Assembly: GCA_016841205.1 (NCBI GenBank)
Contig: JAENZP010000016.1
Span: 1 to 64,000 of the forward strand
Source: Desulfoscipio geothermicus
GTDB lineage: Bacteria > Bacillota > Desulfotomaculia > Desulfotomaculales > Desulfallaceae
DNA length: 64,000 bases
Reading direction: 5' to 3'
Shown here: positions 14,968 to 29,397 of the stretch, piece by piece
How the letters are laid out: the number at the start of each line of letters is the position of its first letter
Numbering within the stretch: the first letter of the stretch is position 1
Translations under genes and position numbers: made by a program
The notes under the pieces: model-generated
Database searches by the model: none
What the model was told of the DNA's origin: nothing
The model's input: only the letters and a program-made list of their open reading frames with translations

Positions 14968-14992
14968 CAATTTATCATAATAAAATATAAAC

Positions 14993-15254
14993 CGATGAGC
15001 AAGAGAAGTAAGAATGATTGGATGTACACAGAGAGCCGCTAACCGGTGTGAATGCGGTTACAGAGATGATTCTGAATGGACTTGCGAGGGCAGCCCGAAA
15101 TCGAAAGAGAATAGGCGCTGACGGGAACTCTGTCCGTTATCAGTAGGGTGTATATGATAGTATACAAAATGAGTGGGCGATTTATCGTCAATTTGGGTGG
15201 TACCGCAGAAGCTTAAAGCTTTTGCCCCTGTGATTAGGGGCAAAAGCTTTTTTA
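14993..15254 (+). promoter_or_regulatory. T-box leader, tRNA-Trp specific (first copy, before trpBA)
   Basis: A complete T-box riboswitch. Stem I begins ATGAGCAAGAGAAGTA; the specifier codon is TGG (15077-15079), inside CTGAATGGACTTG. The T-box antiterminator core GGGTGGTACCGC is at 15195-15206. The competing terminator is a 14-bp stem, AAAGCTTTTGCCCC with its complement (15215-15250), followed by a T-run. Uncharged tRNA-Trp would stabilise the antiterminator and turn on trpBA and, by read-through, the rest of the operon. Confidence 0.93.
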
Positions 15255-15305
15255 TTTTTCTAAAGCCCGCTAATGTATCAATAACCAGAAAGGAAGGTGC
15301 TATAC

Positions 15306-16490
15306 ATGTCAAACGGGCACTTTGGAATCCATGGTGGACAATATATTCCCGAGACGCTAATGAATGCGGTCATTGAGCTGGAAGAGGCCTATAATCACTA
15401 CAAGAACGATCCCGGCTTTCAGGAGGAACTGGCGGAATTGCTGAGAAATTACGCTGGGCGCCCTTCGTTGCTATACTTTGCAGCAAAGATGACCGGAGAT
15501 CTGAAGGGGGCCAAAATCTATCTCAAGCGGGAGGATCTCAATCACACAGGTTCACATAAGATCAACAATGTGCTTGGACAGGTGCTTTTGGCTAAACGCA
15601 TGGGCAAGACCCGCGTGATTGCGGAAACGGGTGCGGGGCAGCACGGTGTGGCCACAGCAACCGCCGCCGCGCTCATAGGGATGGCCTGCGAGATTTTTAT
15701 GGGCAAGGAGGACACCGACCGGCAAAGGCTCAATGTTTACCGAATGGAACTCTTGGGCGCAAAAGTGCATGCGGTGACGAGCGGTACCCAGACGCTCAAA
15801 GATGCAGTAAACGAAACCATGCGTGAATGGACGAAGCGTGTGGCAGATACCCATTATGTGCTCGGCTCGGTCATGGGACCGCATCCTTTCCCGATTATGG
15901 TGCGTGATTTTCAAAGCTTGATTGGCCGCGAAGTCAAGCAGCAGATGTTGCAAAAAGAGGGCAGGCTACCGGATGCCTTGCTTGCCTGCGTAGGCGGTGG
16001 CAGCAATGCGATGGGACTGTTTTATGATTTTGTCAAAGATCCAGGGGTTCGTTTGATAGGCTGTGAAGCCGCCGGACGTGGCATAGATACAGCCGAGACC
16101 GCCGCAACCATGGCAACCGGAACGCTGGGTATCTTTCACGGCATGAAATCTTACTTCTGCCAGGACCAGTACGGTCAGATCGCGCCTGTTTATTCCATAT
16201 CAGCGGGGCTTGACTATCCTGGCGTGGGTCCTGAGCATGCTAACCTCCGCGATACGGGCAGGGCGGAATATGTGCCGGTAACTGATGACGAGGCGGTAGA
16301 AGCATTCGAATATCTCTCGCGTACGGAAGGAATTATTCCTGCCATCGAAAGCGCACACGCGGTTGCCTACGCAAGAAAGCTTGCCCCTACTATGGGTAAA
16401 GATCAAATCCTGGTAGTCAATCTTTCCGGTCGGGGTGATAAAGATGTGGCTGCGATAGCACGTTACAGGGGGGAGCAAATCGATGAATAA
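15306..16490 (+). CDS. trpB: Tryptophan synthase beta chain
   Basis: A 394-residue PLP enzyme that joins indole and L-serine to make tryptophan. The PLP lysine lies in HTGSHKINN (about residue 84), the phosphate-binding loop is GGGSNAMG and the catalytic ETGAGQHG motif is present. ATG 15306 follows GAAAGGAAGG; an in-frame GTG at 15297 lies inside the ribosome site. It overlaps trpA by 8 bases. The trpBA pair leads the operon, ahead of trpEGDCF, which is an unusual order. Confidence 0.97.
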
Positions 16491-17253
16491 ACTACAACAG
16501 GTGTTTGCCGGCGGCAAGGCGTTTATTCCATTTATTACAGCGGGCGACCCATCATTGGAAATTACTGAACAATTGGTGCTTCAGATGGCTGAGGCCGGCG
16601 CGGATTTAATCGAGCTGGGGATACCTTTTTCCGATCCAATTGCAGAAGGCCCTGTAATTCAAGAGGCAGATAATCGTGCTCTAGCCGGTGGTGCAACGAC
16701 GGATAAAATATTTTCCATGGTAGAGAGTATTCGAAAGTCCTGCCAGGTACCTTTAGCTTTTATGACCTATGTAAATCCGATCTTTACTTATGGCACGGAT
16801 AAGTTTATGAAGAAATGTAAAGAAATTGGTATTGATGCGGTGATCGTGCCTGACGTGCCATTTGAAGAAAAAGAGGAACTTTTGCCTTTTTGCTCAAAAT
16901 ACGATGTCACCCTGATCTCCATGATTGCTCCCACATCCAATAACCGCATTCGCATGATTGCTAGTGAAGCGCAAGGCTTTATTTATTGCGTATCATCTAT
17001 GGGGGTCACTGGAGTTAGACAGGAGATTGGCAACGATGTTGAGGAAATGATCAAGTTAGTTAAAGAGGTTAAGGACATTCCCTGCGCAATCGGCTTCGGT
17101 ATCTCGACACCAGAACAAGCTAAGCAAATGGCCCAGTTTGCAGATGGAGTAATTGTGGGCAGTGCCATAGTAAAAATCATCGGCCAATACGGTGTGGACT
17201 GTGTACCTCAGGTTGTGGAATATGTGCGCAGCATGAAAAATAGTATTAAGTAA
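16483..17253 (+). CDS. trpA: Tryptophan synthase alpha chain
   Basis: A 256-residue TIM-barrel enzyme that cleaves indole-3-glycerol phosphate to indole, channelled to TrpB. Catalytic Glu is in [11 protein letters not shown] and Asp in [11 protein letters not shown]; the phosphate loop GFGIS and the IVGSAIV segment are present. The length is that of typical TrpA. Its ATG lies inside the end of trpB, indicating translational coupling. It is followed at once by the second T-box leader. Confidence 0.97.
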
Positions 17254-17277
17254 CTGTAAATTTAATAATCATAATCA

Positions 17278-17537
17278 AACCAATGAGCAAGAGAAGTAGG
17301 TATTGGAAAGTATCACAGAGAGCCGCTGTTGCTGGGAAAGCGGTATACTGGAAAATGCTGAATGGACTTGTGAGGGCGGCTTGAAACCAATGGGGAGTAG
17401 ACGTCGACGGGAACCCTGTCCGTTATCAGTGGGGTGCATAATAATCATGCAAAATGAGCGGGCGATTTATCGTCAATTTGGGTGGTACCGCAGAAGTTTA
17501 AGCTTTTGTCCCTGAGCAGGGATAAAAGCTTTTTTTG
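17278..17537 (+). promoter_or_regulatory. T-box leader, tRNA-Trp specific (second copy, before trpEGDCF)
   Basis: A second full T-box in the trpA-trpE gap. The specifier TGG (17363-17365) sits in the same CTGAATGGACTTG context as the first copy. The T-box core GGGTGGTACCGC is at 17480-17491, and the terminator stem AAGCTTTTGTCCCT with its partner (17500-17531) ends in a T-run. Most of the conserved blocks match the 14993 copy closely while spacers differ, so the two probably arose by duplication. It adds a second checkpoint for transcription entering trpE. Confidence 0.92.
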
Positions 17538-17580
17538 TTGCCATAGAGTGGCCATTTATTGGTGAAATGAGGTTGAACAG

Positions 17581-19041
17581 ATGATTAGACCTGATTCCGG
17601 GAGCATCCAGACACTGGCGAATGAGTACAGTATCATACCGATATGCCGAGAAATCTATGCCGATGTAATTACTCCCATTGCGTTGCTTAGAAAGTTTTCA
17701 GGCATTAGCAGACGTTATTACCTGCTGGAGAGTATCGAGGGCGGGGAAAAATGGGGCCGTTATTCTTTTCTAGGCTTCGACCCGGTTTTGCGGGTGTATT
17801 GTAAAGAACAAACGGTTACCATCGAGCAGAATGATGAGATTGCGAAGATTAAAACTAACCACCCTTATGATGTATTGCGGAAAATTCAACAGGATTACAA
17901 ATCTCCCCGAATACCCGGTATGCCACCGTTTACCGGGGGATTTGTCGGCTACTGGGCCTACGCCATGCTTGGTTACGCGGAGCCAAAATTATCAATTAAG
18001 CGGGGCGAATTCAACGATTTTGATCTTATGTTGTTTGACAAGGTGATCGCTTATGATCATCTCAAGCAGAAAATCTGTATTGTGGTCAACATGAAAACTG
18101 ACCAGGTGTTGGAAAACTACGGCAAAGCCACCGCGGAATTAGAGGCCATTGCCGGCTTGATCAGGGATACCCGGAGGTTACCCCAGCCTAAGAGTGATAA
18201 AAATGTCAATTTTACATGCAATGTCAGCAAGGAAGAATACTGCAATATGGTTGAACGGACCAAAGAATACATTCGTGAGGGAGACATCTTTCAGGCAGTA
18301 ATCTCACGGCAGTTTGCAGCTCCTTACCAAGGCAGTTTGCTAAATGCATACCGGGTTTTGAGAACAACCAATCCTTCACCCTACATGGTTTACATGAACA
18401 TGGATGGAGACGAAATAATGAGCACATCTCCGGAAACGCTGGTGCGTTTACAAAACGGGCGGCTGACTACTTTCCCGGTGGCAGGGTCCCGGCCGAGAGG
18501 AAAAACCGACGAAGAGGATAAACACTTGGAAAATGAGTTGTTGGCTGATGAAAAAGAACTGGCGGAACATAATATGCTGGTTGACCTCGGCAGGAACGAC
18601 CTGGGTAAAATTTCGCAGTTCTCCTCGGTAGAAGTCACCAATTATATGGCTATACATCGCTATTCAACTATTATGCATATCTGTTCCCAGGTGGAAAGTA
18701 ATATACTGCCCAATTGTGACGGGTACAGTGCCATTGAGGCTGTGCTGCCGGCAGGAACCCTGTCCGGCGCGCCAAAGATCAGAGCCTGCGAAATTATTAA
18801 CGAGATGGAAGCCCAGCCGCGCGGGATATACGGAGGCGCACTGGGATATCTGGATTTTACCGGGAATATGGATACCTGCATCGCCATTCGCATGGCCGTA
18901 AAGAAGGATAATAAAGTTTATGTGCAGGCGGGTGGTGGTATTGTAGCCGATAGTATTCCTGAAAATGAGTATGAAGAATCCGGCAATAAGGCCCTGGCGG
19001 TAATTAACGCTATTTGCAATGCCGCGGAGGTTGATGACTGA
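17581..19041 (+). CDS. trpE: Anthranilate synthase component I
   Basis: A 486-residue chorismate-binding enzyme that makes anthranilate with TrpG. The N-terminal LLES motif (YYLLESIEGGEKWGRYSF, about residue 50) is the element that binds tryptophan for feedback inhibition. The catalytic domain carries EGDIFQAVISRQF, LVDLGRNDLGK and AGTLSGAPKIRACEI. Its stop codon overlaps the trpG start (TGATG). It lies downstream of the second T-box, so entry into the pathway is controlled both by tRNA charging and by enzyme inhibition. Confidence 0.96.
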   Translation: MIRPDSGSIQTLANEYSIIPICREIYADVITPIALLRKFSGISRRYYLLESIEGGEKWGRYSFLGFDPVLRVYCKEQTVTIEQNDEIAKIKTNHPYDVLRKIQQDYKSPRIPGMPPFTGGFVGYWAYAMLGYAEPKLSIKRGEFNDFDLMLFDKVIAYDHLKQKICIVVNMKTDQVLENYGKATAELEAIAGLIRDTRRLPQPKSDKNVNFTCNVSKEEYCNMVERTKEYIREGDIFQAVISRQFAAPYQGSLLNAYRVLRTTNPSPYMVYMNMDGDEIMSTSPETLVRLQNGRLTTFPVAGSRPRGKTDEEDKHLENELLADEKELAEHNMLVDLGRNDLGKISQFSSVEVTNYMAIHRYSTIMHICSQVESNILPNCDGYSAIEAVLPAGTLSGAPKIRACEIINEMEAQPRGIYGGALGYLDFTGNMDTCIAIRMAVKKDNKVYVQAGGGIVADSIPENEYEESGNKALAVINAICNAAEVDD

Positions 19042-19607
19042 TGATTTTGCTGATCGATAATTACGATAGCTTTTCCTATAATCTGGTACAGCTGGCCGGC
19101 GGCATCAATCCGGATATTAGAGTTATACGAAATGATGAACTGAGCGTGTCGGGGATTGAAGCGCTGAAGCCTTCTCACGTCATTCTTTCGCCCGGCCCTG
19201 GTTATCCGAAGGATGCCGGTATTTGCGAAGATGTGGTCCTTAGCCTGGCCGGAGAAGTTCCTATCCTGGGAGTGTGCCTGGGACATCAGGCTATTTGTGA
19301 AGTGTATGGAGCAGAAATCTCTCATGCCAAACGGCTGATGCACGGAAAAAAGTGTACCATAAGCCTTGACGACACGTGCTTTCTCTTCCATGGGCTTCCC
19401 CGGCATATTGAGGCCGCGCGTTATCATTCGCTGGCTGCACGGGAAGAAACGCTCCCCGCCCAATTGCAGGTAATTGCTGAAGATGAGCTGGGAGAAGTAA
19501 TGGCCGTTAAACACGAAAAATTTGATGTTTTTGGAGTGCAGTTTCACCCGGAATCTATTATGACCCCTCTGGGGCATGTAGTTATACAAAATTTTTTAAA
19601 TTTATAG
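19041..19607 (+). CDS. trpG: Anthranilate synthase component II (glutamine amidotransferase)
   Basis: A 188-residue class I glutamine amidotransferase that supplies ammonia to TrpE. The nucleophile Cys is in GVCLGHQA (about residue 78) and the His/Glu pair is in GVQFHPES near the end. It is translationally coupled to trpE through an overlapping TGATG. As the only such subunit in the window it may also serve aminodeoxychorismate synthase (PabA), as in several Firmicutes. Confidence 0.94.
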   Translation: MILLIDNYDSFSYNLVQLAGGINPDIRVIRNDELSVSGIEALKPSHVILSPGPGYPKDAGICEDVVLSLAGEVPILGVCLGHQAICEVYGAEISHAKRLMHGKKCTISLDDTCFLFHGLPRHIEAARYHSLAAREETLPAQLQVIAEDELGEVMAVKHEKFDVFGVQFHPESIMTPLGHVVIQNFLNL

Positions 19608-19619
19608 GGGGAAAATAAA

Positions 19620-20642
19620 ATGATAAAGAATGCTATTCAGGCAGTAATCGATGGCAAAGATCTTGACTTTGAAACCGCTAAATTAGTTATGAACGCCATG
19701 ATGGACGGTACTGCTACCCAGGCGCAAATGGGTGCGTTATTAACCGGGCTGAGAATGAAGGGCGAAACAGTAGAGGAAATAACCGCCTGCGCCACGGTGA
19801 TGCGTGAAAAAGGTCTTAGGATTAACCCGGTACGCAATGTTATTGATATCGTCGGAACCGGCGGTGACGGGACGAACACCTTCAATATTTCCACTACATC
19901 CGCTTTCGTTATTGCGGCAGGTGGAGTTCCGGTAGCCAAACACGGGAATCGCGGGGTATCAAGCAAAAGTGGTGCGGCTGATGTTCTGGAGTGTCTGGGG
20001 ATTAATCTCAACCTGACGCCTGAACAAAGCGAAGAAGTATTAGAAAAGACCAATATTTGTTTCATGTTCGCCCAACTCTATCATACATCAATGAAATACG
20101 CGGCACCGGTACGCAAAGAAATGGGAGTTCGCACCATCTTCAACGTATTGGGACCCCTGGCCAACCCGGCGGGAGCGACCATGCAGTTAATGGGTGTATA
20201 TGACCGTAAGTTGATAGAGCCCCTGGCGCAGGTGCTTTCAAATCTTGGTGTGGTAAGGGGGCTGGCGGTAAGCGGCGGCAGTGAGGGAATGGATGAAGTA
20301 ACTCTGACTGGAGAAACCTATGTTTGTGAAATTAGGAATGGAGAGCTAGTTTCATATGAAATAACGCCGGAACAGTTTGGGTTCAGCCGCTGTACCCTTG
20401 AGGATTTGGCCGGCGGCAGCCCTGCGGAAAATGCGCAAATTACCCTGGATATATTAAACGGCCGGGAAAGAGGACCCAAGCGTGACGTGGTAGTCTTGAA
20501 TTCGGCTATGGGCCTTTATTTAGGTATTGATAATTGTACCGTATCGGAATGTATTAAAACGGCCCAGGATATCATTGATAGTGGAAAAGCCGCAGCTAAA
20601 CTGGAACAGTTTCGCAAGCTGACCAATGAGGTTGCCCAATGA
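19620..20642 (+). CDS. trpD: Anthranilate phosphoribosyltransferase
   Basis: A 340-residue enzyme that joins anthranilate with PRPP. The PRPP-binding VGTGGDGTNTFNISTT motif (about residues 78-93), the KHGNRGVSSKSGAADVLE block and NVLGPLANPA are all present. AGGGGGAAAATAAA precedes ATG 19620, 12 bases after trpG. The stop overlaps the trpC start by 4 bases (ATGA). Confidence 0.96.
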   Translation: MIKNAIQAVIDGKDLDFETAKLVMNAMMDGTATQAQMGALLTGLRMKGETVEEITACATVMREKGLRINPVRNVIDIVGTGGDGTNTFNISTTSAFVIAAGGVPVAKHGNRGVSSKSGAADVLECLGINLNLTPEQSEEVLEKTNICFMFAQLYHTSMKYAAPVRKEMGVRTIFNVLGPLANPAGATMQLMGVYDRKLIEPLAQVLSNLGVVRGLAVSGGSEGMDEVTLTGETYVCEIRNGELVSYEITPEQFGFSRCTLEDLAGGSPAENAQITLDILNGRERGPKRDVVVLNSAMGLYLGIDNCTVSECIKTAQDIIDSGKAAAKLEQFRKLTNEVAQ

Positions 20643-21424
20643 TCCTCGATACTATTGCGGCTGCCACTAGAATTAGAGTAGAGCGCAAGAAAGCGGAGGC
20701 GCCGCTTGAACAAGTTAGAAAAGCGGCTCTGAGCATGAATGCCGAAACAGGTTTTCCTTTTGAAGCGGCCATAAACAAACCGGACATCAGTTTTATCTGT
20801 GAAGTTAAAAAAGCATCACCATCAAAAGGAATGATTGTGGCCGATTTTCCGTATGTACAAATTGCCGGAGAATACGAGATGGCCGGAGCGGATGCCATAT
20901 CCGTACTGACGGAACCGGAATACTTTCTTGGCAGCGATGATTACTTAGTGCAAATAAAAGATGCGGTTTCAATACCTGTGCTCCGTAAAGACTTTATAGT
21001 TGATTCTTATCAAATTTATGAAGCCAAAACCCTTGGAGCGTCAGCTGTTCTGCTTATCTGCGCGCTTTTGGATAGCAAGAAAATCCAGAACTGTCTTGCT
21101 ATATGCGATGAACTGGGTTTGTCAGCGCTGGTCGAAGCGCATGACGATAGGGAAGTTGAATTGGCACTGGCAGCCCAAGCCAGAGTTATCGGGGTGAACA
21201 ATCGAAATCTTAAGGATTTTACGGTAGACATCGGCAACAGTATCAGACTACGCAAATTGGTGCCGGACAACATTCTCTTTATCGCAGAAAGTGGTATTAA
21301 AACTGCTTCCGATATTGAAATGCTGCGGCAGGCCAAAGTCAACGGTGTCCTAATCGGTGAAACGCTGATGCGCAGTCCGGATAAGAAAAAAATGTTCGCC
21401 GAATTGCGGGGTATAGCTAAATGA
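20639..21424 (+). CDS. trpC: Indole-3-glycerol phosphate synthase
   Basis: A 261-residue TIM-barrel enzyme that closes the indole ring of CdRP. Visible motifs are FICEVKKASPSKG (catalytic Lys), the VLRKDFIVD strand, LSALVEAHD, GVNNRNL and FIAESGI. It overlaps trpD and trpF by 4 bases each (ATGA), so translation is coupled. It is a stand-alone TrpC, not the TrpC-TrpF fusion of enterics. Confidence 0.96.
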   Translation: MILDTIAAATRIRVERKKAEAPLEQVRKAALSMNAETGFPFEAAINKPDISFICEVKKASPSKGMIVADFPYVQIAGEYEMAGADAISVLTEPEYFLGSDDYLVQIKDAVSIPVLRKDFIVDSYQIYEAKTLGASAVLLICALLDSKKIQNCLAICDELGLSALVEAHDDREVELALAAQARVIGVNNRNLKDFTVDIGNSIRLRKLVPDNILFIAESGIKTASDIEMLRQAKVNGVLIGETLMRSPDKKKMFAELRGIAK

Positions 21425-22041
21425 CCAAAATTAAAATATGCGGTTTGACACGAAAAGAGGATATAGAAGCAGTAAACCGCTGGCTGCCGGACTACGTTGG
21501 TTTCGTGTTTTGCCAAAGCCGCCGGCGGGTGACACCTGAACAGGCAGCTCTTCTTAAAACTGATCTTAATGTTCGTATTAAAGCGGTGGGGGTTTTTGTC
21601 AATGAATCGGTTCCCTCCATTGTTAAACTATGCAATACCTGTGTAATAGATGTGGTACAGCTGCATGGGGATGAAAGCGAAGCATATATAATGGAACTTA
21701 AAGATCAAATTGATTGTCCGGTAATCAAAGTAGTGCGGGTGCAGAGTACGGAACAGGTTCGGCAGGCAGAGAAGTTATCCTGTGATTTGCTTTTGCTGGA
21801 TACTTATCAAAAAGCAGAGTATGGTGGCAGTGGAAAAACATTCGATCATTCAATGATCCCACTCCTTGAGAAGCGATTCTTTCTAGCCGGTGGATTGGAA
21901 AATAGCAATATAGCCCGGGTAATCGAGAAATATAATCCTTATGGGGTTGATATAAGCAGTGGTGTAGAAACTGATGGCATAAAGGATGAGGACAAGATTA
22001 GGCAGATCGTCCAAACGGTCAGAAGTTTAGAATGCAAATAA
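21421..22041 (+). CDS. trpF: Phosphoribosylanthranilate isomerase
   Basis: A 206-residue TIM-barrel isomerase. The N-terminal [11 protein letters not shown] motif carries the catalytic Cys, FVFCQSRR and VVQLHGDE are typical, the general-acid Asp lies in LLLDTY, and the C-terminus has the phosphate-binding VDISSGVET. It is coupled to trpC by a 4-base overlap and is followed 13 bases later by aroF. Confidence 0.95.
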
Positions 22042-22054
22042 GGGAGGCTGTAGG

Positions 22055-23077
22055 ATGATATTTGTATTAAAACCGGGTGTGCCTCAAGAAAAAATTGAGC
22101 AATTTCAACTGATGATCGAGTCGCGCGGTTTCAAAACTTTTCTAAATACCGGCACGGAACATACTGTAGTCTGTTTGATTGGCAACACGGTTGTAATAGA
22201 TTTGGATTCGGTTGTTCAAAACAACGATATTGTGGAATATGGCAAACGCGTGACTGAACCATATAAAGCAGTTAACCGAACTATACATCCGGAGGATACG
22301 ATGGTAAATGTAAACGGTATAACCATTGGCGAGGGCATGTTTCAAGTTATAGCGGGACCATGCTCGGTAGAAAGTGAAGAACAGATTATAGCGGTTGCCA
22401 GGTCCGTGAAAGCCAGCGGGGCAACTATGCTGAGGGGCGGCGCTTTTAAGCCGCGCACTTCACCGTATGCCTTTATGGGACTGCATGAGGATGGATTGCG
22501 CCTTTTGCTTAAGGCCAAAAAAGAGACCGGCTTACCGATTGTTACTGAAATAATGAATCAAACTCAGCTGCCTTTATTCGAGGAAATCGATATTATCCAG
22601 GTCGGCGCCAGAAATATGCAGAATTTCGATCTACTCACTGAAGTGGGGCGGTTTAACAAGCCGGTACTGCTTAAACGGGGGCTTGCCAATACGTTGGAAG
22701 AGCTGTTGATGAGTGCCGAATATATTTTATCCGCAGGAAACAGTCAGGTTATTTTATGCGAAAGAGGGATTCGTACCTTTGAGACAGCTACCCGAAATAC
22801 TCTTGACTTATCGGCAATTCCACTCTTAAAACAGAAATCTCATCTCCCGGTTATTGTTGACCCCAGTCATGCCGCCGGTCTTCGGAGTCTGGTGGCGCCG
22901 TTGGCGCGTGCCGCGGTAGCGGCGGGAGCGGATGGATTAATGATTGAAACCCATAATGATCCTGCCAGGGCTCTGTGTGATGGTGCCCAGTCTCTAGACC
23001 TGGTGCAGTTTAGCGATTTAATGGAGGATTTAAAACGTCGTATCGCATTTGAGGGAAAACAGATAGAAGTTGTTTAG
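22055..23077 (+). CDS. aroF: 3-deoxy-7-phosphoheptulonate (DAHP) synthase, type I-beta with N-terminal regulatory domain
   Basis: A 340-residue first enzyme of the shikimate pathway (PEP plus erythrose 4-phosphate). Residues 1-70 form a ferredoxin-like regulatory domain ([17 protein letters not shown]) typical of I-beta enzymes that respond to aromatic amino acids. The catalytic barrel has [36 protein letters not shown] and [15 protein letters not shown] precedes the ATG. Its place at the end of the trp operon puts precursor supply under the same T-box control. No clear terminator follows. Confidence 0.94.
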
Positions 23078-24254: not shown

Positions 24255-24614
24255 ATGGACAAGAAAAAGCGCAAGGAGTTGTTGGAGGAGTACAAACGGC
24301 TGAAAACCTATATGGGTGTAATCCAAATAACAAACAATGCTAACGGCAAAATTTACATAGCCGCCTATCCCAACCTGAAAAACAAATGGTTGACCATACA
24401 GGGCCAGTTGGTCATGGGTAGGCATGCAAATGCCCGGCTGCAAAAGGACTGGAAGGAACTGGGCCCTAAAGCTTTCACATACGAGGTGCTGGAGGAAAAG
24501 GATGCAGGCGAAGTTACCGATATGCGCTGGGAGCTTAAACAAATGGAAAAGCCGTGGTTGGAGAAATTACAGCCCTACGAAGACAGGGGATATAATAAGC
24601 CTCCGAGGGAATGA
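24255..24614 (+). CDS. GIY-YIG nuclease-like protein
   Basis: A 119-residue soluble protein. The N-terminal segment GVIQITNNANGKIYIAAYPNL matches the two GIY-YIG strands (here GVIQ...KIYIA), followed by a helix with the NARLQKDWKELG pattern seen in GIY-YIG proteins, and a conserved Glu in FTYEVLEE. The canonical GIY and YIG triplets are degenerate, so nuclease activity is uncertain. AGGAAAGGAAG precedes the ATG. It is read from the operator-bearing promoter at 24080. Confidence 0.7.
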   Translation: MDKKKRKELLEEYKRLKTYMGVIQITNNANGKIYIAAYPNLKNKWLTIQGQLVMGRHANARLQKDWKELGPKAFTYEVLEEKDAGEVTDMRWELKQMEKPWLEKLQPYEDRGYNKPPRE

Positions 24615-24674: not shown

Positions 24675-24750
24675 TGGCCCCATGGTCAAGCGGTAAAGAC
24701 GCTGCCCTCTCAAGGCGGAAACAGGGGTTCGATTCCCCTTGGGGCTACCA
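24675..24750 (+). tRNA. tRNA-Glu (anticodon CTC)
   Basis: A 76-base cloverleaf. Acceptor TGGCCCC pairs with GGGGCTA (24741-24747), and CCA is encoded. The anticodon stem CTGCC/GGCGG encloses the loop CTCTCAA, with anticodon CTC at 24709-24711. The T-arm has GGTTCGATTCC. CTC reads GAG (Glu). The first acceptor pair is T-A rather than the more usual G-C. A long coding-like frame across this region (from 24636) is false because it translates the tRNA. Confidence 0.93.
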
Positions 24751-24839: not shown

Positions 24840-25742
24840 ATGAGCTCAAAATTATTAGAGAATTGTACTCTATGTCCGAGGGGTTGTCATGTAGACCGCA
24901 CGCATGGGCAGAAAGGGTATTGCAGAGAAACAGATGAGTTAGTAGTTGCAAGGGCCGCGTTGCATATGTGGGAGGAACCTTGCATCTCTGGAAAAAATGG
25001 TTCAGGAACCGTATTCTTCTCGGGATGTTCCATGGGCTGCGTTTATTGTCAGAATTATAACATTGCTAAAGGATTGGCAGGCAAGAAAATCACAGTGGAA
25101 CGGCTTGCGGATATATTTTTAGAACTTCAGGTGCAAGCAGCAAATAATATCAATTTGGTTACACCAAGCCATTATGTGCCACAGATTATTGAAGCCATAA
25201 CACTATCAAGGGAAAAAGGACTTTATGTGCCAATAGTGTATAATTGCAGCGGATATGAGAAATTGGAGACACTGAAATTGCTGGAGGGTTATGTAGATAT
25301 CTATCTTCCGGATTTTAAATATATGTCCAAAGAGATCGCCAAGAAGTATTCCAATGCTGAAGATTATTTTAATTATGCCTCTGAAGCAATTAAGGAAATG
25401 TTACGTCAAGTAGGTAAACCTTCTTTTAATGAAAATGGCATGATGACAAGAGGTGTGCTTGTCAGGCATTTAACACTGCCAGGGTATCTCAAAGATTCGA
25501 AGGAGATTATTAAATATTTATATGAAACCTTTGGAGATGCAATATTTATAAGTATTATGAACCAGTACACACCGATATCAACTGTCAAACAATATCCGGA
25601 AATTAACCGGAGAGTAACAGATAAAGAATATAATGAATTAGTAAATTACGCCATTTTTTTGGGTCTAGAAAATGGATTTATTCAGCAAGGAGAAACAGCG
25701 TCGGAAAGCTTTATTCCGGAATTTAACCAAGAAGGAGTTTAG
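24840..25742 (+). CDS. Radical SAM protein, PflA/PflX-like (COG1313 type)
   Basis: A 300-residue radical SAM enzyme. An N-terminal Cys motif (CTLCPRGCHVDR...GYC) is followed by the SAM-binding cluster CSMGCVYC (CxxxCxxC, about residues 66-73) in GTVFFSGCSMGCVYCQN. Further landmarks are VTPSHYVPQI, IVYNCSGYE and YLPDFKYM. Such PflX-like proteins resemble pyruvate formate-lyase activating enzymes but their targets are unknown; no PFL-type glycyl radical enzyme is in the window. The ATG at 24840 follows AAAAGGAAAG; a longer frame would run through the tRNA. Confidence 0.88.
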   Translation: MSSKLLENCTLCPRGCHVDRTHGQKGYCRETDELVVARAALHMWEEPCISGKNGSGTVFFSGCSMGCVYCQNYNIAKGLAGKKITVERLADIFLELQVQAANNINLVTPSHYVPQIIEAITLSREKGLYVPIVYNCSGYEKLETLKLLEGYVDIYLPDFKYMSKEIAKKYSNAEDYFNYASEAIKEMLRQVGKPSFNENGMMTRGVLVRHLTLPGYLKDSKEIIKYLYETFGDAIFISIMNQYTPISTVKQYPEINRRVTDKEYNELVNYAIFLGLENGFIQQGETASESFIPEFNQEGV

Positions 25743-25809
25743 AATCATAAAAAAGATTTTAGTTATAGCCGGGTTATATTTTTAAAAACTTTTAATAAAT
25801 AATTAGCTG

Positions 25810-25838
25810 ATGACAAGGTTTACAGGTTGTGGTATAGT
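25810..25838 (+). promoter_or_regulatory. Putative promoter of the TrpXYZ-type ABC operon
   Basis: ATGACA (25810-25815), a 17-base spacer and TATAGT (25833-25838). It precedes a leader of about 210 bases. Confidence 0.55.
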
Positions 25839-25843
25839 ACCCA

Positions 25844-25995
25844 TAGTAGAGGACTACGAGACTAGTATAGTTATTAGAAAATTTTATACGGAGTGGTTGA
25901 GAAGAGATGAGCTTGGAGATAGTATGGATGAGCAGAGTTAACCGTCTTAAACCAGGCTGAGAAGTCTGGATTTTTTATGAGATGAGGAGATGAGA
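25844..25995 (+). promoter_or_regulatory. Leader RNA rich in (G/T)AG triplets, possible TRAP-type binding site with attenuator
   Basis: The leader opens with a small hairpin (GTAG-AGGA-CTAC) and then carries clustered GAG/TAG triplets, several at exactly 2-base spacing: GAG-ac-TAG-ta-TAG (25858-25870), GAG-aa-GAG-at-GAG (25899-25911), GAG-ca-GAG (25930-25937), with others between. A terminator hairpin follows (25952-25976), then GAG-at-GAG and GAG-at-GAG (25979-25994) just beyond it. In bacilli the tryptophan-activated TRAP ring binds about eleven (G/U)AG repeats spaced by 2-3 bases. Spacing here is not uniform, and no TRAP gene is in the window, so this is a hypothesis. Confidence 0.4.
25952..25976 (+). 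terminator. Leader terminator/attenuator
   Basis: CCAGGCT (25952-25958), GAGA loop, AGTCTGG (25963-25969; one G-T pair), then ATTTTTT. It lies between the promoter and the first gene, which marks it as an attenuator. Confidence 0.7.
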
Positions 25996-26053
25996 AACGT
26001 ATCCTAGACATGTATTCAGAGAATACTCAAAAAAATTTGTGGGAGGTTATTTA

Positions 26054-27058
26054 ATGAAGAAGTTCATGTCAGTAGTTATTTTGGTATGCCTATCATTACT
26101 AATGACCTCGTTGGTTGGATGTACATCCAGTCAGAAGCAATCGGGGGAATCATCAAAGGATGATAATAAATTACAGATAGGGATTGTACAAATCGTAGAG
26201 CATCCATCTCTTAACACCATCAGAGAGTCATTAATTAAGGAATTGGGCGCTCAAGGATTTAAAGATGGTGAAAATATAGTAATTGATTATCAAAATGCTC
26301 AAGGCGATCAGACCAATCTCAAAACCATCTGCCAGAAGTTTGTAAACAATAAGTATGACTTAATTATTGCCATAGCTACCCCGTCTGCCCAGGCGGCGGT
26401 AGGTGAAACCAAGGAAATTCCGATAGTATTTTCAGCCTGTACAGATCCGGTAGGGTCAGGACTGGTGAGCAATTTGGAGAAGCCCGGCCAAAATGTTACC
26501 GGAACCTCTGATGCAGTATCAGCCGAAAAGATTATGGAACTGGCCAAGCGTATAACGCCCGGCATTAAGACAGTAGGAGCATTATATACCTCCAGCGAAA
26601 CTAATTCCGTATCAGTTGTTAATAATCTTAAAGATTACGCTGCAAAAAATAGCCTGACAGTTGTGGAAGCAACTGTAACTAATTCATCAGAAGTTCAACA
26701 AGCAGTCAGCTCTTTAGTTGGCAAGGTTGATGCCATATTCTCACCCATAGATAACACGGTTGCTTCAGCTATGCCGTTGGTTGCGCAGGTGGCTAATAAG
26801 GCGAAAAAGCCTGTATATGTAGGTGCGGATTCGATGGTGAAAGATGGTGGATTGGCTACATTTGGTATTAACTACACCATTTTGGGACAGGAAACAGCCA
26901 AAATGGCTGCGGAGATACTAAACGGAAAAAATGCCGGCGATATCCCGGTTAAGACCATGACTGATATGGACATTTATGTTAATAAAGATACTGCTGCTGC
27001 TATTGGGGTTACTATACCTGATGATGTTTTAAAAGCAGCTACGATATTTGGAAAGTAA
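26054..27058 (+). CDS. ABC transporter substrate-binding lipoprotein, TrpX-like (COG2984 family)
   Basis: A 334-residue extracytoplasmic binding protein with a lipoprotein signal (residues 1-24, lipobox SLVGC). The mature chain has the family pattern: IGIVQIVEHPSLNTIRE, then IIAIATPSAQAAV, FSACTDPVGSGLV and the GQNVTGTSD block. Members of this family import tryptophan, tyrosine or other small ligands in Firmicutes. ATG 26054 follows GGGAGG. The permease and ATPase follow directly. Tryptophan is a reasonable ligand guess given the family and the leader, but it is not proven. Confidence 0.85.
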   Translation: MKKFMSVVILVCLSLLMTSLVGCTSSQKQSGESSKDDNKLQIGIVQIVEHPSLNTIRESLIKELGAQGFKDGENIVIDYQNAQGDQTNLKTICQKFVNNKYDLIIAIATPSAQAAVGETKEIPIVFSACTDPVGSGLVSNLEKPGQNVTGTSDAVSAEKIMELAKRITPGIKTVGALYTSSETNSVSVVNNLKDYAAKNSLTVVEATVTNSSEVQQAVSSLVGKVDAIFSPIDNTVASAMPLVAQVANKAKKPVYVGADSMVKDGGLATFGINYTILGQETAKMAAEILNGKNAGDIPVKTMTDMDIYVNKDTAAAIGVTIPDDVLKAATIFGK

Positions 27059-27080: not shown

Positions 27081-27989
27081 ATGAGTTTCTTGGCTTTTCA
27101 GGGCTCAATTGAATTGGGAATTATCTATGCCATAATGGCACTGGGAGTGTTTCTCTCCTTTCGAACCTTAAATTTTCCTGACTTGACTGTAGATGGCAGC
27201 TTCGTTACCGGGGCTGCCTTTTCAGCGGTGTTATGTATCAACGGACATCCGGTATGGGGATTGGTACTGGGGTTGGTAGCCGGAAGTGCGGCTGGATGTA
27301 TAACCGCCCTGTTGCATACCAAGCTGGAAATTCAGCCATTACTGGCGGGAATCCTGGTCATGCTGGGCTTATACTCCATAAATTTAAAGGTAATGGGTAC
27401 CAGAGCTAATATTCCCTTGGTAAACCAAACGACCGTATTTAGCTCTCTGGAAGGTACAGCTTTGGAAGCGTACGCCCAATTGCTTATCCCTTTGGGAATC
27501 CTGCTGGCCTTATTAATTTTATTGTTTTTGTTTTTAAAGACCAAACTTGGTTTTAGTCTTCGGGCCACAGGTGACAATGCCCAGATGGTACGGGCTTTGG
27601 GAGTTAATACCGATACAACGATTTTAATTGGTATGGCGCTTTCCAATTCTTTGGTGGCTTTATCCGGCGCTCTGCTGTCGCAGTATCAATCATTTACCGA
27701 TATTGGCATGGGTATAGGTATGGTAGTTATAGGTTTAGCCTCGGTGATTATTGGTGAGGTTATTTTTGGTACTAGTTCACTGCTGCGGCGTCTGATCGCG
27801 GTGATCCTTGGGGCAGTACTCTACCGAATGATTATTGCGGTGGCCCTGGAAATGGGGATGCCGGCTACGGATTTGAAGTTGGTATCCGCAACACTGGTAG
27901 CTTTAGCGTTAGCAATGCCGATTATTAAGAAAAAGGCTTTATTTTACAAACGGAAAATAGCGGCTCAGGGTATTAAGCGGGGAGGGTAA
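27081..27989 (+). CDS. ABC transporter permease, TrpY-like (COG4120 family)
   Basis: A 302-residue membrane protein with about eight to nine hydrophobic segments. Family hallmarks are the ELGIIYAIMALGVFLSFRTLNFPDLTVDG start, the GCITALLHTKLEI loop and GFSLRATGDNAQMVRALGVN (about residue 170), a conserved cytoplasmic segment of branched-chain-type permeases. AAAGGAG precedes ATG 27081; a longer frame from 27048 overlaps the binding-protein gene and is less likely. It ends 5 bases before the ATPase gene. Confidence 0.85.
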   Translation: MSFLAFQGSIELGIIYAIMALGVFLSFRTLNFPDLTVDGSFVTGAAFSAVLCINGHPVWGLVLGLVAGSAAGCITALLHTKLEIQPLLAGILVMLGLYSINLKVMGTRANIPLVNQTTVFSSLEGTALEAYAQLLIPLGILLALLILLFLFLKTKLGFSLRATGDNAQMVRALGVNTDTTILIGMALSNSLVALSGALLSQYQSFTDIGMGIGMVVIGLASVIIGEVIFGTSSLLRRLIAVILGAVLYRMIIAVALEMGMPATDLKLVSATLVALALAMPIIKKKALFYKRKIAAQGIKRGG

Positions 27990-27994
27990 GAAGA

Positions 27995-28789
27995 TTGGTT
28001 ATAATTGAAGGTCTCAGCAAAGTCTTCGACCATGGGACCACTAACGAAAAGCTGGCCCTTGATAATATTAACCTTTCCCTGGGAACGGGTGAGTTTGTAA
28101 CCGTAATTGGTGGCAACGGCGCCGGCAAATCCACTTTACTAAATTGTATCGCCGGGGTATTCGAAATAGACACGGGCAGAATTATGCTGGGAAATAAAGA
28201 TATGACTTACTGGCCTGAATATAAACGTTCCAGGCATATTGGCCGGGTATTTCAGGATCCTCTCCAAGGAACCGCTTTTGATATGACTATTGAAGAAAAC
28301 CTGGCGATAGCTTATGCGAAAGGTAAACCCCAGGGTTTAAGAAGAGGCATTAACAAAGCTGACCTGCAGAAGTTTAGAGAGCGACTGTCCTTGCTTGACT
28401 TGGGCCTTGAAGATAGGATGAAACAAAAAGTAGGAACCCTTTCCGGTGGGCAGCGTCAGGCCCTAACGCTTCTGATGGCAACCATGGTTGAACCGCAGCT
28501 GTTATTGCTGGATGAGCATACGGCTGCTTTGGATCCAGGGATGGCTAAAAAAGTTATCTCGCTTACCGGGGAGATGGTTGAGCAATATCATTTATGCACC
28601 TTAATGGTGACTCACAATATGAAGGCTGCTTTAGAATACGGCAGCCGGACAATCATGATGCATGAAGGCAGAATCATCATGGATATAACCGGCCGGGAAA
28701 GAGAAACGATGACGGTTGAGTTGTTAATAAAGCAGTTTGGCAGTCGCAGCGGGACTGAACTGGATAATGACAGGCTTCTCTTGAGTTAA
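27995..28789 (+). CDS. ABC transporter ATPase, TrpZ-like (COG1101 family)
   Basis: A 264-residue ATPase with Walker A GGNGAGKST (about residue 38), Q-loop VFQDP, signature TLSGGQRQALTLLMA, Walker B LLLLDEHTAALDP and the H-loop VTHN. His after the catalytic Glu (DEHTA instead of DEPTA) is characteristic of this subfamily. It starts at TTG 27995 behind GGGGAGGG. It is the last gene of the importer operon; no hairpin terminator is obvious before the next promoter at 28838. Confidence 0.88.
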   Translation: MVIIEGLSKVFDHGTTNEKLALDNINLSLGTGEFVTVIGGNGAGKSTLLNCIAGVFEIDTGRIMLGNKDMTYWPEYKRSRHIGRVFQDPLQGTAFDMTIEENLAIAYAKGKPQGLRRGINKADLQKFRERLSLLDLGLEDRMKQKVGTLSGGQRQALTLLMATMVEPQLLLLDEHTAALDPGMAKKVISLTGEMVEQYHLCTLMVTHNMKAALEYGSRTIMMHEGRIIMDITGRERETMTVELLIKQFGSRSGTELDNDRLLLS

Positions 28790-28917: not shown

Positions 28918-29397
28918 ATGAAAATACCAACTACTTTAAAGCATAAACCGGTTATAGTATCTGAAAACTACGAAAACGTTGACGGCAGGTATGCGTATAA
29001 TTCAGATGCTAAGGGTCTTTCATTAGGATTGGCGCAATGGAATGACCGGGGTAAAGTAGAAATATCCGCCAAAGTGTGGAGGTACACAGGTGAAAAATGG
29101 TCCAGACAGTCTGAGGAAATGCCGCTGCACCGTGTACTTGACCTGGCTATTTTAGTTTGTAGAGCAAAACTTCATTTTCAAGAAGCTTACCGGTATGAGA
29201 AGTTATACGACCCTGAGAAACCTGTCATTGACAGAGTGGGTTTACAGGGTGACGCCATGACGGTTGCTGTTTGTACCGATAATGAAAAGATCAATGAGGA
29301 TATAAAGTTATTCAGCCAAGCTCTTAGTAATGATGATGAACTTCTCGGAGAGCGATTAAAAACTTTAGCAAGGGTTTTAAACGAGATGGGTTATTAA
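28918..29397 (+). CDS. DUF6530-like hypothetical protein
   Basis: A 159-residue soluble protein without signal or membrane segments. The N-terminal KIPTTLKHKPVIVSENYENVDGRY, the SDAKGLSLGLAQW motif and the SAKVWRYTGEKWSRQSEE stretch followed by LHRVLDLAI resemble a widespread uncharacterised family that I recall as DUF6530. The biochemical role is unknown. GAGGGGG precedes ATG 28918. It is read from the operator-bearing promoter at 28838 and converges with the minus-strand gene at 29405, 7 bases away. Confidence 0.65.
   Translation: MKIPTTLKHKPVIVSENYENVDGRYAYNSDAKGLSLGLAQWNDRGKVEISAKVWRYTGEKWSRQSEEMPLHRVLDLAILVCRAKLHFQEAYRYEKLYDPEKPVIDRVGLQGDAMTVAVCTDNEKINEDIKLFSQALSNDDELLGERLKTLARVLNEMGY

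Follow-up and report, generated by a model that had tools for sequence, protein, structure and literature searches.

The question raised by this locus is how a tryptophan ABC importer, encoded by trpXYZ, is controlled in a genome in which the main tryptophan biosynthetic genes are preceded by T-boxes. The initial annotation of the window (the complete stretch of 64,000 nucleotides that was analysed) had proposed a site for the ring protein TRAP in front of the importer, an interpretation that is supported as far as sequence comparison goes. We consider it very probable that the region 25844-25976, the leader of trpXYZ, acts as a TRAP-controlled transcription attenuator.

The importer operon and its leader

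The TrpX protein reached 354 bits with the model NF041285, which is under the cut-off of that model (390). The assignment of tryptophan as the substrate is backed by AAATGGGCC, read as a UGG-holding specifier, upstream of 12 of the 14 nearest trpX homologues, and it is strengthened by the array in the trpX leader. Upstream of the importer the biosynthetic groups trpBA and trpEGDCF-aroF were found (15297-23077), each led by a T-box, as had been suggested before; in both T-boxes UGG follows GAA in the specifier region (our own reading of the codon). The earlier suggestion of two tryptophan sensors acting within 12 kb agrees with the distance, as the T-boxes lie some 11 kb from the array, but the TRAP side of it is a prediction. 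The surroundings of the operon also include an ORF (24255-24614) with a weak match to group I intron endonucleases (TIGR01453, E 4e-5), located beside a tRNA-Glu gene (24676-24750), and, directly 3' of the importer operon, a gene for a DUF6530 protein (PF20140, E 1e-89; 28918-29397).

Table 1. Features of the trpXYZ region and of the T-box-led trp operons in the window
Feature	Position	Strand	Remarks
T-box leader before trpBA	14986..15232	+	Rfam; UGG specifier; trpB and trpA by profile matches
T-box leader before trpEGDCF-aroF	17274..17516	+	Rfam; UGG specifier; genes by profile matches
Sigma-70-like promoter, ATGACA-17-TATAGT	25810..25838	+	TG before second hexamer; 10/12 consensus positions
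(G/U)AG array, candidate TRAP-binding site	25844..25937	+	15 triplets, 14 non-overlapping
Predicted antiterminator 5' arm, AGCUUGG	25910..25916	+	Pairs with 25952-25958; overlaps triplets 25909-25911 and 25916-25918
Intrinsic terminator	25952..25976 (stem-loop 25952-25969)	+	7-bp stem-loop CCAGGCT-GAGA-AGTCTGG, then ATTTTTT
Four further triplets, GAGatGAGGAGatGAG	25979..25994	+	3' of the terminator, thus in read-through RNA only
trpX, tryptophan ABC importer substrate-binding protein	26054..27058	+	NF041285, E 6e-106; PF04392
trpY, permease	27081..27989	+	PF02653; ORF opens with TTG 27048, ATG 27081
trpZ, ATPase	27995..28789	+	PF00005

The leader stretches from the stop codon of a radical-SAM ORF (25742) to the ATG of trpX (26054), and contains, in this order, a promoter-like site, 15 triplets, a terminator and four more triplets. 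The radical-SAM reading that starts at a TTG (24636) overlaps the tRNA-Glu gene, so that the true start of this ORF is probably located later. Transcription from the promoter-like site is predicted to start around 25845, at the first triplets; four such sites were found where 1.6 were expected, which makes the promoter call weak when taken alone. The attenuator hairpin that had been recognised at 25952-25976 was confirmed, and it is the sole terminator-like site found in 25700-26100 (shuffles mean 0.0).

TRAP-controlled leaders contain about 9-11 or more (G/U)AG triplets, a number reached by the 15 triplets (14 non-overlapping) that precede the terminator. The enrichment in GAG and TAG triplets described in the initial annotation is real, although its count of at least 14 was too low: the segment 25844-25995 holds 20 triplets when overlaps are included, 15 of which are located before the terminator, one in the terminator loop and four after it. 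All four triplet runs that had been named are in place, but the spacers of the last one (25979-25994) are 2, 0 and 2 bases and not uniformly 2. Irregular spacing had been pointed out as well, and indeed the spacers between the 14 non-overlapping pre-terminator triplets range from 0 to 13 bases (0, 8, 2, 2, 4, 13, 5, 2, 2, 4, 1, 7 and 2); exactly 2 bases occur in 6 of the 13 cases, 3 bases in none, and a single spacer counts 13. The 20 triplets in 152 bases compare with 11 in the next-richest stretch of that length on either strand of the whole window. When 60 windows were simulated with a first-order Markov model of the entire sequence, the maximum averaged 12.7 triplets and never exceeded 15. 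According to the available excerpt of one source, the triplets of TRAP sites are separated by spacers of 2-3 bases (PMC11255114), from which the irregular spacing in the window departs.

The arrangement suggests the following control. When tryptophan is scarce, TRAP would be off the RNA and the segment 25910-25916 would pair with 25952-25958 to form an antiterminator, blocking the terminator, and the importer would be transcribed. When tryptophan is plentiful, the tryptophan-loaded TRAP ring would be bound to the (G/U)AG triplets and keep 25910-25916 single-stranded; the terminator (25952-25969 plus the U-run) would then form and transcription would end before trpX. We infer TRAP binding, the dependence on tryptophan and the direction of control at the trpX leader from this arrangement.

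In the predicted fold of the free RNA of the window, the 5' arm of the terminator was paired upstream (0.99), thereby excluding the terminator, and with the triplet at 25909 kept single-stranded the terminator was formed (0.97). Random positions that were held open flipped the fold too (mean terminator 0.97), and the folding thus shows only that the array sits where a bound protein would matter. The antiterminator of the window was modestly above the shuffles, 17 out of 200 of which paired at least as much. In a hand-picked set of 15 array-bearing leaders (13 of trpX and 2 of trpD2, the trpD of a second trpDCF set), the terminator was preferred at equilibrium in 13, even with the triplets free. 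In folds with half of the terminator, the upstream pairing exceeded the shuffle mean in 14 of these leaders, and was equalled by at most 10 of the 200 shuffles in only 7, the window not being among them. We rejected folding as an independent proof of TRAP control, as it is non-specific, given the effect of random blocks and the preference for the terminator in 13 of the 15 leaders.

TRAP and clustered triplet runs in the genome

A search of the genome for mtrB (encoding TRAP), which had been proposed as a check, yielded a single gene (C13:281995-282195, E 1.7e-40), flanked by dnaE and pfkA. Its product of 77 residues reached 142 bits where the cut-off of the NCBIfam MtrB model is 117, and is similar to TRAP proteins of solved structure, with an alignment that spans residues 10-75 and has no gaps. 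The equivalents of Lys37, Lys56 and Arg58 (B. subtilis numbering), which we take to be the RNA-binding residues of TRAP, are present by eye in this MtrB. Within the order, 105 of the 113 genomes gave an mtrB match, one of these matches (in G010) being a remnant; a class-level trpX search gave the same 113 genomes, so that the whole-genome survey spans one order. A protein matching anti-TRAP (PF15777) was found in none of the 16 genomes of the family with this probe, which is a loose one since it also matched in unrelated control genomes. To our knowledge work on TRAP has been confined almost entirely to Bacillus and related bacteria, and the present data concern TRAP in an order outside that group, with readable candidate targets: an ABC importer and trp genes.

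Single regular runs of triplets (KAG-NN-KAG-NN-KAG) occur at 63 places in the genome and at 99 in the reversed control, and therefore carry no meaning. A same-strand pair of non-overlapping runs within 100 bases was found at only two loci genome-wide, where about 0.05 such pairs would be expected by our own arithmetic: the trpXYZ leader and C21:55945-55978. The array at the latter locus is followed by a terminator and then by a second trpD-trpC-trpF set, whose trpD (trpD2) is 43% identical to the trpD of the T-box-led operon in the window. The leader array and terminator of this second set are found at L083:5888-6031 (G000:C21), before L083:6112-8574.

We also observed arrays of five triplets that end 2 to 5 bases before a trpD match in at least seven genomes (G001, G003, G007, G008, G012, G013 and G015); the match begins at residue 2 or 3 of trpD in these genomes. 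These abutting arrays are likely to represent TRAP control of trpD translation.

Arrays and T-boxes in related genomes

The 400 bases upstream of 47 trpX matches in the order were scored for triplet pairs at a 5-base distance, and an array was called at four or more pairs, a threshold picked from the gap seen among these 47 rows. Twelve of the regions, that of the window included, showed 4 to 9 pairs, and the other 35 showed 0 or 1. A thirteenth array was found some 600 bases upstream of trpX in G006, and mtrB is present in all 13 array-bearing genomes, that of the window included. Of the 12 array rows, 11 group in the trpX tree within a well-supported clade of 13 resident trpX rows, which therefore has an array within 400 bases in 11 of its 13 rows and in 12 when G006 is counted; in G009, which has mtrB and a resident trpX, we found no array in about 1.1 kb upstream.

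Judged by their sequences, the triplet-rich trpX leaders of the relatives resemble classical TRAP attenuators. In L071, for example, GAG-ct-GAG-at-GAG is followed by the hairpin ACCGGTACTCATTTGAGTACCGGT and T's. The same hairpin core was also found after an array of ten triplets before trpE in G027 (L210, G027:C26:10500-12500), indicating a recurring element; mtrB was not found in this 99%-complete assembly despite the ten-triplet array and terminator before its trpE. Neither of the two findings that had been named as refuting a TRAP site, a genome devoid of mtrB and triplets that do not recur in orthologous leaders, was obtained. Arrays precede trpX in 12 other genomes, but the trpX genes concerned are only about 40% identical to that of the window, and the nearest relatives of the window trpX have T-boxes. 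A clear homology between the array and terminator of the window and those that precede the resident trpX genes was not apparent by eye. Another observation on these leaders is the occurrence of CTCCTCG right after the T-run of the terminator in L068, L074, L075 and L084 (weaker in L076 and L077), complementary to CGAGGAG of the array; an extra pairing in the read-through RNA of these relatives is possible, and was not seen in the window.

The trpX copy of the window has a different background. It pairs in the tree with the copy of G096 (74-75% identity), which has a T-box, and the two join the resident trpX clade on weak support with long branches (flagged). The 14 nearest trpX loci in the named collection (70-84% identity) belong to Syntrophomonas, a Syntrophomonadaceae MAG, Desulfosporosinus and other MAGs. 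None of them has an array by the four-pair threshold (0 to 3 pairs each). The core motif of a T-box was found upstream of 12, a variant of it in L095 and none in L100 (a partial match), and at the gathering threshold Rfam reported a T-box upstream of 6; mtrB is present in 6 of the 13 genomes holding these loci. Among the nearest relatives of the window copy, L034 is T-box-led. The Rfam search covered 40 of these 47 upstream regions of trpX (all except L040, L041, L043, L049, L052, L055 and L057), and a T-box in L038 was left uncounted because it is on the strand opposite to trpX. As the nearest relatives are T-box-led, the trpX of the window, coming from a T-box-controlled lineage, is now found behind a triplet leader. 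Apparently the importer was acquired from such a lineage, and the leader would have been exchanged after transfer of trpX.

A related pattern was observed for trpD2, of which close homologues occur in G003 (89%) and in G010, G011 and G014 (77%). In both genomes with an intact mtrB (G000 and G003) trpD2 is preceded by an array and a terminator, and in all three genomes in which mtrB is deleted or broken (G010, G011 and G014) by a T-box. The remnant of mtrB in G010 (L160, G010:C53:59500-62000; about 1098-1256 on the - strand) lacks the start and some 32 codons, and a Cys replaces the Arg of IKIRG. G011, G014 and G002 each have the usual two neighbours of mtrB next to one another on a single contig, and the sequence between these genes gave no TRAP match. 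Neither an array nor a T-box was present upstream of two other trpD2-like matches, those of G008 (70%) and G002 (71%, partial), where the sequence resembles coding sequence by eye. G010, G011 and G014 are relatives in one genus, and their combination of a T-box with mtrB loss perhaps reflects one event.

In the family (16 genomes), four or more pairs before trpX or trpD were found in 9 of 12 genomes with an intact mtrB (G000, G001, G003, G006, G007, G008, G012, G013 and G015, not G004, G005 and G009) versus 0 of 4 without (Fisher 0.019). With at least three pairs this became 10 of 12 versus 3 of 4 (Fisher 1.0); G010, G011 and G014 have three pairs each, two of which are located at the start codon of trpD2 by eye. 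We rejected this family-wide tally as proof, because its outcome hinges on the threshold (four versus three pairs). The chances seem evenly balanced that TRAP and Trp T-boxes swap on orthologous operons of the order with gain and loss of mtrB. The genome of the window would then be in between, with T-boxes on its main trp genes and TRAP on the importer and the second trpDCF set, and free tryptophan and tRNA charging would be read separately for import and synthesis. The genomes that lack mtrB and have a T-box on the homologous operon offer a natural experiment in which one RNA-based sensor replaces another.

Alternative explanations and known systems

TRAP might bind the trpX leader and yet govern mainly translation, as it does for B. 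subtilis trpP, the terminator being incidental or unregulated. This would fit the four extra triplets 3' of the terminator, the triplets at the probable trpX start region of two relatives (L076 and L077) and the arrays that abut trpD starts in the family. It fits less well with the single triplet (26043) that lies near the ribosome-binding site of the window trpX, with the position of the main array, which is separated from the start codon by more than 100 bases and is followed directly by the terminator, and with the predicted pairing that competes with the terminator. We regard mainly translational control as unlikely; attenuation is preferred since the array is flanked by the promoter and the terminator and is remote from the start codon. 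That the leader is a degenerate or unrecognised T-box, like those of the nearest trpX homologues, is suggested by these homologues and the G096 copy. Rfam detected T-boxes at two other sites in the window and neither a T-box nor any other known RNA family at the trpX leader, nor a T-box in L033 (the same region), and by eye the GGTGG-ACC core is not visible in 25743-26053. The T-box reading is thereby largely refuted and extremely improbable.

The triplets could also be the chance product of a purine-rich leader, with an attenuator that is constitutive or controlled otherwise. Under the composition of the leader itself the triplet count was attained in 2.6% of 5000 simulations and is only mildly unusual, the spacing is irregular, and the nearest relatives of the window trpX are without an array. 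Nevertheless, the 8 triplet pairs at the exact 5-base period were attained in just 0.04% of the same simulations, so that composition accounts for much of the density and not for the spacing. Moreover, mtrB is present in the genome, arrays precede trpX in 12 other genomes, and the sole other locus with clustered runs in this genome precedes trpDCF. Chance enrichment is very unlikely, and was rejected on the periodicity, the genome-wide clustering and the recurrence in relatives, the density alone being unremarkable under local composition. Attenuation by TRAP is the reading that we retain for the trpX leader.

The mechanism of TRAP is known. In the open-licence part of the literature, our search found no TRAP attenuator described before trpXYZ or in this host group, and no exchange between TRAP and T-boxes.

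In the trp leader of B. subtilis the (G/U)AG array overlaps the antiterminator and is followed by an intrinsic terminator. The leader in the window is similar in that its array overlaps a predicted antiterminator, an intrinsic terminator is located 3' of it and mtrB is present in the genome. It differs in that its target is an ABC tryptophan importer and not biosynthesis, and in that the spacing is less regular; furthermore, the main trp genes of the host are T-box-led, and anti-TRAP was not found in the 16 genomes of the family. That B. subtilis leader is an established case of a TRAP attenuator, according to the available excerpt of the source (PMC11255114). For B. subtilis trpP (yhaG), the same excerpt places the action of TRAP at the region of translation initiation, where ribosome binding is impeded (PMC11255114). 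The predicted TRAP target in the window is likewise a tryptophan transporter, but its array precedes a terminator. For the trpXYZ operon of Streptococcus suis, control by a Trp T-box and low expression when tryptophan is plentiful are described in the accessible part of the report (PMC9382623). On that description the window has the same type of importer and the same predicted control logic; the T-box RNA, however, senses the charging of tRNA-Trp, whereas the sensor in the window would be a protein ring that binds free tryptophan.
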